NCBI RefSeq assembly: GCF_000973085.1
Contig: NZ_CP011280.1
Span: forward strand, 124,001 to 188,000
Length of the DNA stretch: 64,000 nt
Direction: 5' to 3'
Origin: Sneathia vaginalis
Lineage (GTDB): Bacteria; Fusobacteriota; Fusobacteriia; Fusobacteriales; Leptotrichiaceae
The translations under genes and the position numbers were made by a program. Below the pieces are notes generated by a model. It worked only from the letters and a program-made list of their open reading frames with translations. It did not search any database and was not told the DNA's origin. Shown here one piece after another: positions 51,062 through 56,356 of the stretch (positions are counted from its first letter, which is position 1; each line of letters opens with the position of its first letter).

Positions 51062-51575
51062 TAATATATTAATTTTAATATTCTTTTTGATACTCCTATT
51101 TTTAAAATATTATTACATAGAAAAACCTGTAGGTAATATATATATAACAGTAGGAGGTTTGCTTTTAACAGTAGTAAGTTACTTATATTTTAACAACATA
51201 TTAAATGAACTTAATATTGAAAAAAAGTATAAATATATCTATTTAGTTATATTAGTATATGCAAATATAATATCAACTATTATAAATGCATCATCATATA
51301 TAAGTGATATGGTTTACATTAGTGACACTTTTAGATATATTGTTATATTTTCAAAAATAACATATGTGCTTATTAGTCTATATCTTGTTAATGAAGCATT
51401 TACAAAAAAGAAATATAGAACGTTATCAGTTTTATTCTTCTTTGTTTCATATTTAAATGTTTGGGAAATATTTGTAAAGTATGAAGCAGTATTAGCGATT
51501 ATAGCAATATTATTAAATTATGGACTAGAAAGATATGGCAGAATTATTAATAAGAAAAAAGAGAATAATAAGTAA
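51027..51575 (+). CDS. Unrecognised polytopic membrane protein
   Basis: About 182 residues with five hydrophobic helices and a basic C-terminus (RIINKKKENNK). No known motif. Start chosen at ATG 51027 behind GGAG at 51014-51017; ATG 51012 and ATG 51048 are alternatives. It overlaps the TPR gene by 35 bases and the racemase gene by 41 bases, an unusually tight nesting that implies coupled expression. Confidence 0.6.
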   Translation: MKTILKQMKKINNILILIFFLILLFLKYYYIEKPVGNIYITVGGLLLTVVSYLYFNNILNELNIEKKYKYIYLVILVYANIISTIINASSYISDMVYISDTFRYIVIFSKITYVLISLYLVNEAFTKKKYRTLSVLFFFVSYLNVWEIFVKYEAVLAIIAILLNYGLERYGRIINKKKENNK

Positions 51576-52401
51576 TTTAAATAAATTAAAAGAATATTCA
51601 CCTAATAATATATACGTTTTAAAGGCAAATGCTTATGGCTTAGGTATAGAAAATATTGTAAGTATATTAAAAGAGCAAAATGAAGATTTTTTTGCAGTTA
51701 GCAATATAGAAGAAGCTATGAGAGTAAGAAAAATAGACAGTGAATGTAGGGTGTTGATACTAGGAGATGTTGATAAAAAAGATATAGATTTAGTGAAGAC
51801 ATATAATTTTGAGCCAACTCTATTTTCCCAAAAACAAATGGAAAAATACAGGGGACTTAGAGTACACGTTTCATTTAATACAGGACTTAATAGATTAGGA
51901 TTTGATGAGTATGTTGATTATCCTAATATATTAAGTGTTTATTCACATATATCTGATGCGTTTAATAAGAAAAGAGTAATGGATCAAGTGAATAGATTTG
52001 ATGAAATTTGTAAAAATTATACCAACGTAAAAAAACATCTTTTTTCAACAGAAGCAATGCTATTATACCCGAACAAATATGATTATTGTCGTATAGGAAT
52101 GGGACTTTACGGATTTAATGAAGGCTTTTTAAAGGCAAGTGTTTTAAAAGTTAAAGTTTTGCAAAAAAGAAGTATAAAAAAAGGTGAATATATTTTTTAT
52201 GGAAGTAAGAATATAGCTAAAAAAGATATGGATATAGCTATATTAGAATTGGGGTATAAGGACATAAATATACAAAATGCTTGTATGGATATGATGTATA
52301 TGCCTATTACAGAAGACATAGGTGATTATGTATATATAGACATAGATTCAGAAAAACAACTTGCAAGTTTGTCACCATATATAAAAAGAACATTAATATA
52401 G
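51535..52401 (+). CDS. alr: Miniature alanine racemase
   Basis: 288 residues against about 360-390 in the family. PLP lysine is Lys30 in VLKANAYGLG; TGLNRLGF (Arg136 equivalent), SHISDA, YCRIGMGLYGF (Arg219 equivalent), the catalytic tyrosine in LELGYKDI (Tyr241) and CMDMMYMPI are all retained. Missing are most of the residues between the Tyr and CMDM motifs, a few N-terminal ones, and part of the C-terminal beta domain, which ends SPYIKRTLI where SYRVPRI is usual. It would supply D-alanine to the wall cluster. The key residues suggest it is active. Confidence 0.8.
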   Translation: MAELLIRKKRIISNLNKLKEYSPNNIYVLKANAYGLGIENIVSILKEQNEDFFAVSNIEEAMRVRKIDSECRVLILGDVDKKDIDLVKTYNFEPTLFSQKQMEKYRGLRVHVSFNTGLNRLGFDEYVDYPNILSVYSHISDAFNKKRVMDQVNRFDEICKNYTNVKKHLFSTEAMLLYPNKYDYCRIGMGLYGFNEGFLKASVLKVKVLQKRSIKKGEYIFYGSKNIAKKDMDIAILELGYKDINIQNACMDMMYMPITEDIGDYVYIDIDSEKQLASLSPYIKRTLI

Positions 52402-52412
52402 AAAGAGGATAA

Positions 52413-53699
52413 ATGATAAAAGAAGATATAGTGAATATTTTAGATTCTATAATATTTAAAAATAAATTTAGTAATATAGAATTAAATTACTATTTTACAA
52501 TAAAGAATTATACATATGAGCAAAAATCTTTTGTAAAAAATATTATAACTGATGTTTTAAAAAATCTCATATACATAGACTATGTTATAAACCAATATGC
52601 TAGTAATGTAAGTAAAAGAAAAATAAAGCATCTTTTAAGACTATCTGTTGCACAGATTGCCTTTTCTTCTAAAGATTCAAAAGGTATCATATACGAAGCA
52701 AATGAGATAGCAAAAAAAGAGAGCATACATCAGGCTAAATTTGTAAATTCAGTTTTAAATAAGATAGTTTCTAATATTGATAAGATTAATAAGAAAATTG
52801 ATGATGAGAAGTTATTTCATATAAAATATTCATATCCTAAGTGGTTAGAAGAAAAGATAAAAATAGATTTTCCAGATGACTACATCAATATTATGGAAAA
52901 TTTAAAAAATAGATCTTATCTATCTATAAGAGTTAATAGAAAAGCCATTGATATAGATAAATTTTATAACCTTATTAAAAACGATGTGGTATACAGATTA
53001 GAAGATGTATTCTATTTAAAAAATGGTAAGGTATTAGAAAAGCTAGAAGAAAATACATATTTTATACAAGACGGGGCCTCATATATAGTATGCAAAAATA
53101 TAGATGTAAAAGATGGAGATACAGTCTTAGATGCATGTAGTAGTCCTGGTGGTAAAACACTTGGTATATTAAGTTTATTCAATCCTAAAGTTGTATACGC
53201 ACAAGATATATACAATCATAAGATAGAAATTTTGGAAGGTCTAAAAAAGAGATATAACTTTTCTAATATGATAGTAGAGAAAAAAGATGCAACTAATGAA
53301 GAGGACTATCCTTTAGAATACTTTGATAAGATATTACTAGATGTTCCTTGTTCAGGTTTAGGTGTAATAAAAAGAAAGCCAGAGAAGATATATAGTTTAA
53401 GCTTATCTGATATTAAAGCATTAAAGAAGTTGCAAAAGAAAATAATAGAAAATAATCTTAGATTTTTAAAAAAAGGTGGAGAATTAGTATATAGTACTTG
53501 TACTATAACTAAAAATGAAAATACAAATAACATTAAATATATATTAGAAAAATACCCTAACTTAGAGGTTATAGAACCTAAAGTTCCAGAAGGTATAGAG
53601 TATATAAAAGACGAAATAGGGGGTATATATTTAAGCTATAAAAATAAGTATTTAGATAATTTTTACATCATAAAATTAAGAAAGAAAAATGAAGATTAA
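52413..53699 (+). CDS. rsmB: 16S rRNA m5C967 methyltransferase RsmB
   Basis: 428 residues. An N-terminal NusB-like helical domain (1-130) precedes a Rossmann SAM domain with DACSSPGGKTLGILS, the motif IV Cys in LDVPCSGLGVIKRKPE and the catalytic Cys in YSTCTITKNEN. Its stop overlaps the ATG of the next gene by one base. Confidence 0.94.
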   Translation: MIKEDIVNILDSIIFKNKFSNIELNYYFTIKNYTYEQKSFVKNIITDVLKNLIYIDYVINQYASNVSKRKIKHLLRLSVAQIAFSSKDSKGIIYEANEIAKKESIHQAKFVNSVLNKIVSNIDKINKKIDDEKLFHIKYSYPKWLEEKIKIDFPDDYINIMENLKNRSYLSIRVNRKAIDIDKFYNLIKNDVVYRLEDVFYLKNGKVLEKLEENTYFIQDGASYIVCKNIDVKDGDTVLDACSSPGGKTLGILSLFNPKVVYAQDIYNHKIEILEGLKKRYNFSNMIVEKKDATNEEDYPLEYFDKILLDVPCSGLGVIKRKPEKIYSLSLSDIKALKKLQKKIIENNLRFLKKGGELVYSTCTITKNENTNNIKYILEKYPNLEVIEPKVPEGIEYIKDEIGGIYLSYKNKYLDNFYIIKLRKKNED

Positions 53700-55405
53700 T
53701 GGAAGTTTTAATAGACGATGATACACGAGATATCTTATACAAACTAAATGAAAAAGGCAGTGCATATATAGTTGGTGGTTATGTAAGAGATACATTGCTT
53801 GGTATAAAAAGTAGTGATATAGATATAGTAACAAACTTAGATAAAATTGATATTATAGAAGCTTTAAGAGGATATAATCCAGTTTTATCAAATGATAAAT
53901 ATCAAATTATTACCATAAAATTAAAAGATAAAAAATATGAGATTGCAAGATTAAGAGAAGATATAGGTATATCTGATGGAAGAAATCCCCAATACATTAA
54001 ATTTATTGATGATATAAATAAAGATTCAGTAAGACGTGATTTTACAATAAATGCTTTTTACTATAACAAAGAATTAATCGATACTCAAAATGGTAGTTAT
54101 GATTTAGAGAATAGATTGATAAGAAGTATAGGTGATGCAAGTATAAGGTTTAGTGAAGATAGACTAAGAATATTGAGAGCATTTAGATTTATGTCACACT
54201 TAGGTTTTGAACTTGAAGAAAATACAATGCTAGTTATAAAAAACATGGCAAAGGATACAAGTCTTTTTTCTTCATTTTCAAAGGAGCGATTAATATCTGA
54301 ATTTAATAAGATTTTACTAGGAAGATATGCATATAAAGCGATAGAAGCTATGTTTAACTTAAATGTATTAAGACATTTTATAGACATTTTCAATAAAAAT
54401 ACATTTGATAATATATTGTTTCTAGAGATTTGTAAGAAGTATAAAAAAATGCAAGAAAGCTATAGAGAAATTGATATAGACATGAGTTATGCTCTAATAT
54501 TTTCTTTTTCAGGTAAGAAGAACATTCATACAGAAAGGCTCTATGAAAATGATAGTATAGAGCAGTATGAAAAATTTAGAACAAAATTTACATTAAATGT
54601 ATCAAAGAAAAGTATAGTAAAAAACCTAATATATTATCATAATTTGGTCAATAAAAAGCCGAGTTTAATTATGTTAAAACGTATGTTATTAGACCTTGTA
54701 AATAATCAAAATGTATGTAAGTTATTTAATCTAATAATGATCTTATTTGATTTAAATATAAAAGACATACAAAAACTTTTATACAACATACAAATATTGT
54801 ATATGGCACAAGAACCAGTATTTTTATCAAGCCTTGATTTAGATAATGTTGATTTATTTAATTTAGGCATAGAAGGAAAAAAGATTCTAGGAATAAAAAT
54901 GGATGTATTTAGTAAAGTTTTAAATGGAGATTTACCTAATTCTAAATTTGAACTACTAAGCTATATTACAAAAAAATATTTAAATAATGCACAACTTAAG
55001 TATGAGAAAAGTGCTGGAGCTATTGTGTATAAGAAAATTAATGGAAAATATATGTTTTTAATAATCAGAGGAAGTAATGGCGGAAGTTTTGGATTTGCCA
55101 AAGGTCATATGGAATCAGATGAATGTGAAGAACAAACTGCTATAAGAGAAACAAAGGAGGAAACAAATATAGATATTGCTATAAGAAATTCTAAGGCTTT
55201 TAGAAGGACGTTAAAGTATGTAATATATCCTAATATATATAAGGAAGTTACATTGTTCATGGCAGAAGCATTAAGTGCAGATATTAAAATAGATGAACAT
55301 GAGTTATCAAAAGCACAGTGGTTAACATATAAGCAAGCAAAAGAAGCATTAACGTTTTTAGGTCAAAGAAATATACTTAAAGAAGCAATGATATATTTAT
55401 ACTAG
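53699..55405 (+). CDS. cca: CCA-adding tRNA nucleotidyltransferase fused to a Nudix hydrolase
   Basis: 568 residues. Residues 1-430 form a class II CCA-adding/poly(A) polymerase: VGGYVRDTLLG with SSDIDIV (metal aspartates), RRDFTINAFYY, EDRLRILRAFRFMSHLGFE and the helical tail. Residues from about 440 form a Nudix domain: SAGAIVYKK, then the Nudix box from Gly469 (GHMESDE, seven residues, RETKEE). The Nudix part resembles Ap4A/diadenosine-tetraphosphate hydrolases. Both active sites appear intact. No frameshift or internal start separates the halves. Confidence 0.88.
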   Translation: MEVLIDDDTRDILYKLNEKGSAYIVGGYVRDTLLGIKSSDIDIVTNLDKIDIIEALRGYNPVLSNDKYQIITIKLKDKKYEIARLREDIGISDGRNPQYIKFIDDINKDSVRRDFTINAFYYNKELIDTQNGSYDLENRLIRSIGDASIRFSEDRLRILRAFRFMSHLGFELEENTMLVIKNMAKDTSLFSSFSKERLISEFNKILLGRYAYKAIEAMFNLNVLRHFIDIFNKNTFDNILFLEICKKYKKMQESYREIDIDMSYALIFSFSGKKNIHTERLYENDSIEQYEKFRTKFTLNVSKKSIVKNLIYYHNLVNKKPSLIMLKRMLLDLVNNQNVCKLFNLIMILFDLNIKDIQKLLYNIQILYMAQEPVFLSSLDLDNVDLFNLGIEGKKILGIKMDVFSKVLNGDLPNSKFELLSYITKKYLNNAQLKYEKSAGAIVYKKINGKYMFLIIRGSNGGSFGFAKGHMESDECEEQTAIRETKEETNIDIAIRNSKAFRRTLKYVIYPNIYKEVTLFMAEALSADIKIDEHELSKAQWLTYKQAKEALTFLGQRNILKEAMIYLY

Positions 55406-55406
55406 T

Positions 55407-55970
55407 ATGAGAGAAAATATATTTGTTGGGTTAGTTCATTACCCAGTATACAACAAAAATAAAGAGATTGTTGCAACATCTGTAACAAATTTTGATATAC
55501 ATGATATTTCAAGAACAAGTAGAACCTATGACATTAACAAGTATTTTATCATAACACCTGTAAAATCTCAGATAGAATTAACTAAGAGAATAATGGGTTA
55601 TTGGCAAGAAGGTGATGGAATAGGATTTAATAAGGACAGAAATGAAGCATTCGAAAATACAAGAGTAGTTTCTAGTATACAAGAAGCAATGGATAGTATA
55701 GAAAAACTAACAGGTAAGAAACCAAAGATAGTTACAACATCTGCAAAAATACATGATAATAGTATAACATTTGCTGATATGAGTAAGCTTTTATTCACAA
55801 TGGAAGATCCTGTATTACTCTTATTTGGTACTGGATTTGGATTAACAGATGAGGTAATGTCTATGTCGTATAAGATAATAGAACCTATAAGGGGTAAAAC
55901 AAAGTATAATCACTTATCAGTAAGAGCAGCAGTTAGTATAATATTAGATAGATTATTGGGGGAAGATTAA
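55407..55970 (+). CDS. SPOUT-family RNA methyltransferase (COG4752 type)
   Basis: 187 residues. Opens with IFVGLVHYPVYNKNKEIVATSVTNFDIHDI and later VLLLFGTGFGLTDEV and NHLSVRAAVSIILDRLLG, the SAM-knot region of COG4752 proteins (formerly DUF2168). In Thermotoga a member lies beside trmD and has the SPOUT fold; trmD is 1.5 kb downstream here. Its RNA target is not known. Overlaps dhaM by one base. Confidence 0.8.
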   Translation: MRENIFVGLVHYPVYNKNKEIVATSVTNFDIHDISRTSRTYDINKYFIITPVKSQIELTKRIMGYWQEGDGIGFNKDRNEAFENTRVVSSIQEAMDSIEKLTGKKPKIVTTSAKIHDNSITFADMSKLLFTMEDPVLLLFGTGFGLTDEVMSMSYKIIEPIRGKTKYNHLSVRAAVSIILDRLLGED

Positions 55971-56356
55971 TGGTAGGAATAGTAATAATAAGTCACTGTA
56001 GTAATATAGGTGACGATTTAATAGATTTTTTAAATGTATTTAAAACTAGTGATTTTGAAATAGTAAATGGGTCAGATAAGAATATACAATTTGGTACAAC
56101 TACTGAATATGTAGTTGAAGCTATTAAAAAAGCAGATAAAGGAGAAGGTGTTTTAGTAATACTTGATCTAGGAAGTTCAATAGACTGTGCAATTCATGCA
56201 AAGAAATTACTAGAAGGTAAGATAAAAGTCGAAATAGCTGATGCACCTATGATAGAAGGGGCAATTTCAGCTGTTGCAGGTAATGATGAAACAATAGATT
56301 TAAAGACTTTAAAGAAAATTGCAGAAGATAGTAAAGAATTCAGAAAGGTTAAATAA
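55970..56356 (+). CDS. dhaM: DhaM-like PTS phosphotransfer protein
   Basis: 128 residues, EIIA-Man fold as in the phosphotransfer subunit of dihydroxyacetone kinase. His9 in IVIISHCSN is the phosphorylation site; QFGTTTEYVVEAI, VLVILDLGSSIDCA and DAPMIEGAISAVAG (PLVEGA in typical DhaM) are the other landmarks. The kinase subunits DhaK and DhaL are not nearby. It would receive phosphate from HPr; ptsI is 2.9 kb downstream in the same run. Confidence 0.82.
   Translation: MVGIVIISHCSNIGDDLIDFLNVFKTSDFEIVNGSDKNIQFGTTTEYVVEAIKKADKGEGVLVILDLGSSIDCAIHAKKLLEGKIKVEIADAPMIEGAISAVAGNDETIDLKTLKKIAEDSKEFRKVK

Follow-up and report, generated by a model that had tools for sequence, protein, structure and literature searches.

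The gene at positions 53699–55405 (plus strand) of the window, the 64,000-nucleotide stretch of the Sneathia vaginalis genome that was analysed, encodes a protein of 568 residues in which a class II (CCA-adding) tRNA nucleotidyltransferase continues into a C-terminal Nudix hydrolase domain. We read it, with a probability of roughly 0.6, as a bifunctional enzyme that would combine tRNA 3'-end repair with the hydrolysis of Ap4A/NpnN; in this reading the fusion is a single event at the root of the Leptotrichiaceae, and the HD site was lost later in one branch. Both halves come from known families, and the new element is their combination. Papers describing a CCA–Nudix fusion were not found in open-access full text, and an earlier description elsewhere is possible.

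The in-frame fusion is genuine. The reading frame runs through 568 codons without a stop or a frameshift, starting with an ATG that shares bases with the rsmB stop codon (TAATG), and it is a single open frame in 28 genomes, which rules out an assembly error or a frameshift as its source. The unbroken read-through from one enzyme into the other, claimed in the preliminary description, holds in all of these genomes. The same is true of the intact Nudix box (residues 469–491, positions 55103–55171 on the plus strand), whose catalytic Glu and Arg residues are invariant in 28 of the 28 fused proteins. The Pfam search that had been proposed alongside these claims recovered three domains on the plus strand, each match exceeding its curated cut-off: the catalytic PolyA_pol head (residues 22–142, positions 53762–54124, 3.4e-29), the PolyA_pol_RNAbd neck (residues 169–228, positions 54203–54382, 4.7e-10), which follows an ED154xxR157 motif, and an Ap4A-hydrolase-like NUDIX domain (residues 438–560, positions 55010–55378, 8.3e-12). 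The body and tail of about 200 residues between neck and Nudix (residues 229–430, positions 54383–54988, plus strand) have no Pfam match in the window protein and were assigned by homology to the HD-containing body of relatives. An AlphaFold model built from 17 relatives is confident along the entire length (mean pLDDT 89.4, pTM 0.70), and a Foldseek search with it matched the first two thirds to CCA-adding enzymes (1MIV, E 1.6e-18).

The features that define class II CCA-adding enzymes are present in the first half, i.e., a PolyA_pol head with DxD and RRDFTINA, the EDxxR motif and the RNA-binding neck. The head carries GGYVRD, D40xD42, a flexible-loop segment (R86–P97) and RRDFTINA, and its motif residues are invariant. 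The top NCBIfam model is the CCA tRNA nucleotidyltransferase (6.4e-52, vs 3e-36 for the poly(A) polymerase PcnB), with none of the models reaching its equivalog cut-off. The fused gene is the only PolyA_pol-family gene in the window genome (a single contig of 1,330,224 bases), so its product is not one half of a CC-adding/A-adding pair. In the loci analysed, all 33 distinct tRNA genes identified by ARAGORN already encode CCA, which makes the first half probably a CCA repair enzyme rather than the maker of every CCA end. The N-terminal two thirds would then be the cell's only class II tRNA nucleotidyltransferase, and would mainly mend worn 3' ends with CTP and ATP.

To establish how widely the fusion occurs, a point raised in the preliminary description, we searched the proteins of 98 genomes of the window phylum. 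The fusion is present at full length and in one frame in 28 Leptotrichiaceae genomes, and the same fusion is found on a Leptotrichia contig (L036). The Leptotrichiaceae genomes without a full-length match are 82–88% complete, and in them the gene either gives no match or is truncated where a contig stops (G067, G090). The fusion was found in no Fusobacteriaceae genome examined; these have unfused enzymes of about 400–460 residues or other types. Among the best 80 loci of a scan of genome contigs, none of the 79 from outside the Leptotrichiaceae shows a Nudix box in frame with the CCA enzyme. The matches listed for samples of 399 Bacillota, 120 Actinomycetota and 120 Spirochaetota genomes (phylum names inferred from the loci centring each search) include no in-frame Nudix domain after a CCA enzyme, and the one match that extends to profile position 530 (G626) runs through eight stops. 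These searches give no further case and argue against a fusion widespread in bacteria. The fusion is common to the whole family Leptotrichiaceae; it may also occur outside this family, phyla beyond Bacillota, Actinomycetota and Spirochaetota being hardly sampled.

A phylogeny of the CCA half, also suggested at the outset, groups the fused enzymes in a single clade (SH-aLRT 91). In 28 of the 28 fused loci the gene directly upstream is rsmB, which encodes the 16S rRNA m5C967 methyltransferase (positions 52413–53699 in the window, plus strand, NCBIfam). The shared locus and the single clade do not support a recent horizontal gain, and the fusion probably has a single origin, at the root of the family, where it would have joined the Nudix domain to an enzyme already equipped with an HD phosphohydrolase domain. 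Four genomes of the family encode a second, unfused nucleotidyltransferase beside the fusion (L159, L160, L161 and L162). Three of these (L159–L161), HD-type enzymes almost identical to one another, cluster with those of the Fusobacteriaceae, which suggests that they were acquired by transfer; L162 is more divergent. Upstream in the window, an alanine racemase (positions 51535–52401) is short, at 288 residues, and Pfam covers only the first 40 or so of the 127 positions of its C-terminal domain.

The HD domain of CCA enzymes has a known cyclic-phosphate/phosphatase activity (PMC10673834). In the window protein the HD metal site (H...HD...D) is missing, there is no PF01966 match, and the body reads FSFSGKK where relatives read FHDLGK; since the metal ligands are absent, this activity is not expected of it. 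The preliminary description had proposed that the Nudix domain replaced the HD domain. We reject this, because Leptotrichia/Sebaldella-type fusions carry both together (PF01966 and PF00293), with the HD metal site present, e.g., in L011, L016 and L021. Nor does the Nudix domain occupy the place of the HD domain: in the window branch, the tRNA-binding part is separated from the Nudix domain by a body homologous to the one that contains HD in relatives (hhalign probability 97.9%, E 3.6e-13). The HD residues are lost in 9 of the 28 fused proteins (the window protein and L003–L010), which form one clade with an SH-aLRT of 100 and a long stem, and the motif is altered in two further members (HE in L013, FN in L170). 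Because relatives carry both domains and the body of the HD-lost clade is homologous to theirs, sequence comparison indicates that an HD-type enzyme first gained the Nudix domain at its C-terminal end, and that the HD site decayed afterwards in the Sneathia–Caviibacter–Oceanivirga–Streptobacillus branch.

Many bacterial CCA enzymes, such as those of Bacillus and Aquifex, lack an HD domain. A Fusobacteriaceae CCA enzyme of 400 residues (L167) also lacks the HD motif (LFLNNQEDIGK), which suggests that the motif was lost on more than one occasion in the phylum. Genome sizes in the Leptotrichiaceae are 1.22–1.34 Mb for Caviibacter and Sneathia, 1.38–1.90 Mb for Streptobacillus and Oceanivirga, 2.31–2.47 Mb for Leptotrichia and 4.42 Mb for Sebaldella (PMC5093955); the sizes of the genomes studied here agree with these values, and the genus names used for the relatives are probable assignments from size and kinship. 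The branch in which the HD active site was lost, and the Nudix site kept, is one of small genomes. Only in this branch is the fused gene followed by a SAM-dependent RNA methyltransferase gene (PF09936; positions 55407–55970 in the window, plus strand, Pfam), which starts one base past it. Also kept in the HD-lost branch is a lone DhaM/EIIA-man-like phosphocarrier domain (PF03610; positions 55970–56356), within this cluster of RNA-processing genes.

The Nudix box of the window protein reads G469-X5-E475-X7-R483-E484-X2-E487-E488. Its catalytic residues are intact, and it deviates from the consensus (GX5EX7REUXEEXGU) at two weaker positions, with T485 in place of a hydrophobic residue and N490 in place of Gly. 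Sixteen residues past the box, Tyr507 (positions 55217–55219, plus strand) is invariant in all 28 fused proteins and corresponds in the alignment to Tyr82 of chain 3U53 (Tyr87 of the human Ap4A hydrolase in 1XSA numbering). A tyrosine downstream of the box is a published marker of ApnA specificity (PMC5389931). When PDB entries were ranked with a profile of 11 fused Nudix domains, asymmetrical Ap4A hydrolases came first (8.5e-22 to 7e-19), and the best Foldseek match to this half was the structure of CT771 containing hydrolysed Ap4A (TM of up to 0.86 when normalised to the target length). On these sequence and fold matches and the invariant Tyr507, the Nudix half resembles Ap4A hydrolases of the asymmetrical type, within the moderate reliability of Nudix substrate predictions made from sequence. 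Of the substrates first considered (pyrophosphate, damaged nucleotides and Ap4A), Ap4A is now the best supported, and free pyrophosphate is unlikely since what Nudix pyrophosphohydrolases cleave is a nucleoside diphosphate joined to another moiety, X (PMC5389931).

None of the NCBIfam equivalog cut-offs is reached by the Nudix half. The MutT (8-oxo-dGTPase) cut-off is missed by a MutT1-type match (33.1 bits vs 475), and weak family matches of this kind, to MutT1 and NudB, would fit a domain that cleans the nucleotide pool of the CCA reaction, e.g., of 8-oxo or deaminated ATP and CTP before they enter tRNA ends. We consider this quite unlikely, because Ap4A hydrolases are far ahead of MutT-type enzymes in both the PDB profile and the fold searches, and because two of the three other Nudix proteins of the window genome, which together resemble MutT- and ADP-ribose-type enzymes, already match MutT-type models. 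For RppH, the window Nudix domain gave no match at 0.001, and that of the relative L021 scored 33 bits against a cut-off of 118.

The strongest rival to our main reading, if an unlikely one, has RNA 5' ends as the target of the Nudix half. RNAs bound by the tRNA-binding half would there lose pyrophosphate or an NpnN cap, and one protein would thereby process both ends of the acceptor stem. Asymmetrical Ap4A hydrolases are capable of such a reaction: the human enzyme NUDT2 also trims 5'-triphosphate RNA (PPP-RNA), so that the residues of the window Nudix domain fit an RNA substrate as well (PMC8616924). The fused partner is moreover an RNA-binding enzyme, and the genome's three remaining Nudix proteins all stay below the RppH cut-off. 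The tRNA 5' end adjoins the 3' CCA, which also speaks for such a role, but RNase P leaves a monophosphate at the 5' end of mature tRNAs, and the ApnA tyrosine points to a dinucleotide as the preferred substrate.

Conservation is similar in the Nudix half and in the CCA head, with identities of 62% and 58%, respectively, to the sister species, and of 34–41% and 35–46% to Leptotrichia/Sebaldella. This bears on the reading that we hold to be the least probable, in which the fusion is an operon accident kept by drift, with two unlinked activities, or the Nudix domain has been only structural or binding since the HD loss. The loss of the HD residues without loss of the enzyme means that accessory domains can decay in these proteins. 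The invariance of the Nudix catalytic residues and of Tyr507 across the family, together with a conservation like that of the head, nevertheless disfavours a dead Nudix domain; it does not disfavour two independent activities. As for the source of the domain, no viral relatives were recovered when the window Nudix sequence alone served as the query, and a tree with long branches singled out no donor among stand-alone relatives. Elsewhere in the sampled genomes, a 351-residue protein (L175, G097:C43:15400-17400) opens with an Ap4A-type Nudix domain that is 39% identical to the fused one and is followed by a second domain.

Ap4A and related NpnN are by-products of aminoacyl-tRNA synthetases, and Ap4A is the alarm nucleotide of these enzymes under stress. 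In the bifunctional enzyme that we favour, the C-terminal third would cut Ap4A or NpnN to ATP and AMP, or to NTP and NMP. Such cleavage of Ap4A would be redundant, since the window genome, like nearly all of the phylum, has a gene for YqeK (TIGR00488, 116.5 bits), a family of symmetrical Ap4A hydrolases; we therefore reject the Nudix half as the cell's necessary sole Ap4A hydrolase. Domain fusions often indicate linked functions. The most likely benefit here would be co-localisation and equal dose, the fusion fixing both activities in one polypeptide at sites rich in tRNA and synthetases, rather than the passing of an intermediate. A tighter functional coupling of the Ap4A-type Nudix domain to tRNA 3'-end repair seems doubtful: it might act in cis on the 5' ends of CCA-held RNAs, or Ap4A might set CCA repair, with a Nudix site that has outlasted the former HD phosphatase.

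Throughout the Leptotrichiaceae, a single protein has continued to combine an Ap4A-type hydrolase with the repair of tRNA ends. If the halves are coupled, a by-product of the synthetases would be tied to tRNA maintenance within one assayable enzyme; if they are not, knowledge of the fusion is still of use in annotating the genomes of Sneathia, Streptobacillus and Leptotrichia. The natural series from HD plus Nudix to Nudix only also allows one to ask what purpose an accessory hydrolase serves in CCA enzymes.

Head, neck and body of the window protein align with the class II CCA-adding enzymes of Bacillus stearothermophilus (1MIV) and Thermotoga maritima (3H39) in sequence (5.3e-29) and in fold, and it shares the motifs GGxVRD, DxD, RRDFTINA and EDxxR with the bacterial members of this class, from which it differs by the additional C-terminal Nudix domain of about 135 residues. 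Compared with the HD-containing CCA enzymes, such as Escherichia coli Cca and Mycobacterium tuberculosis Rv3907c, the body is of the HD-containing kind but the metal ligands are missing, whereas the Leptotrichia/Sebaldella fusions retain the HD motif as these enzymes do. The Nudix half has in common with human NUDT2, the Caenorhabditis elegans Ap4A hydrolase and Chlamydia CT771 the KGHxE...E box, the ApnA tyrosine and a downstream Glu (E535 in the window protein); these enzymes are stand-alone proteins of about 150 residues, whereas the window Nudix domain is the tail of a tRNA nucleotidyltransferase. A parallel in architecture comes from a relative in the same class (L030:877-2757, minus strand; about 13 kb from L175), in which QueH, an epoxyqueuosine reductase (PF02677, 1.9e-62), is fused to an HD-containing CCA-adding enzyme. 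There too, in the same phylum, a class II CCA enzyme is joined to a tRNA-related enzyme, but QueH is N-terminal, the HD domain is kept, and there is no Nudix domain.
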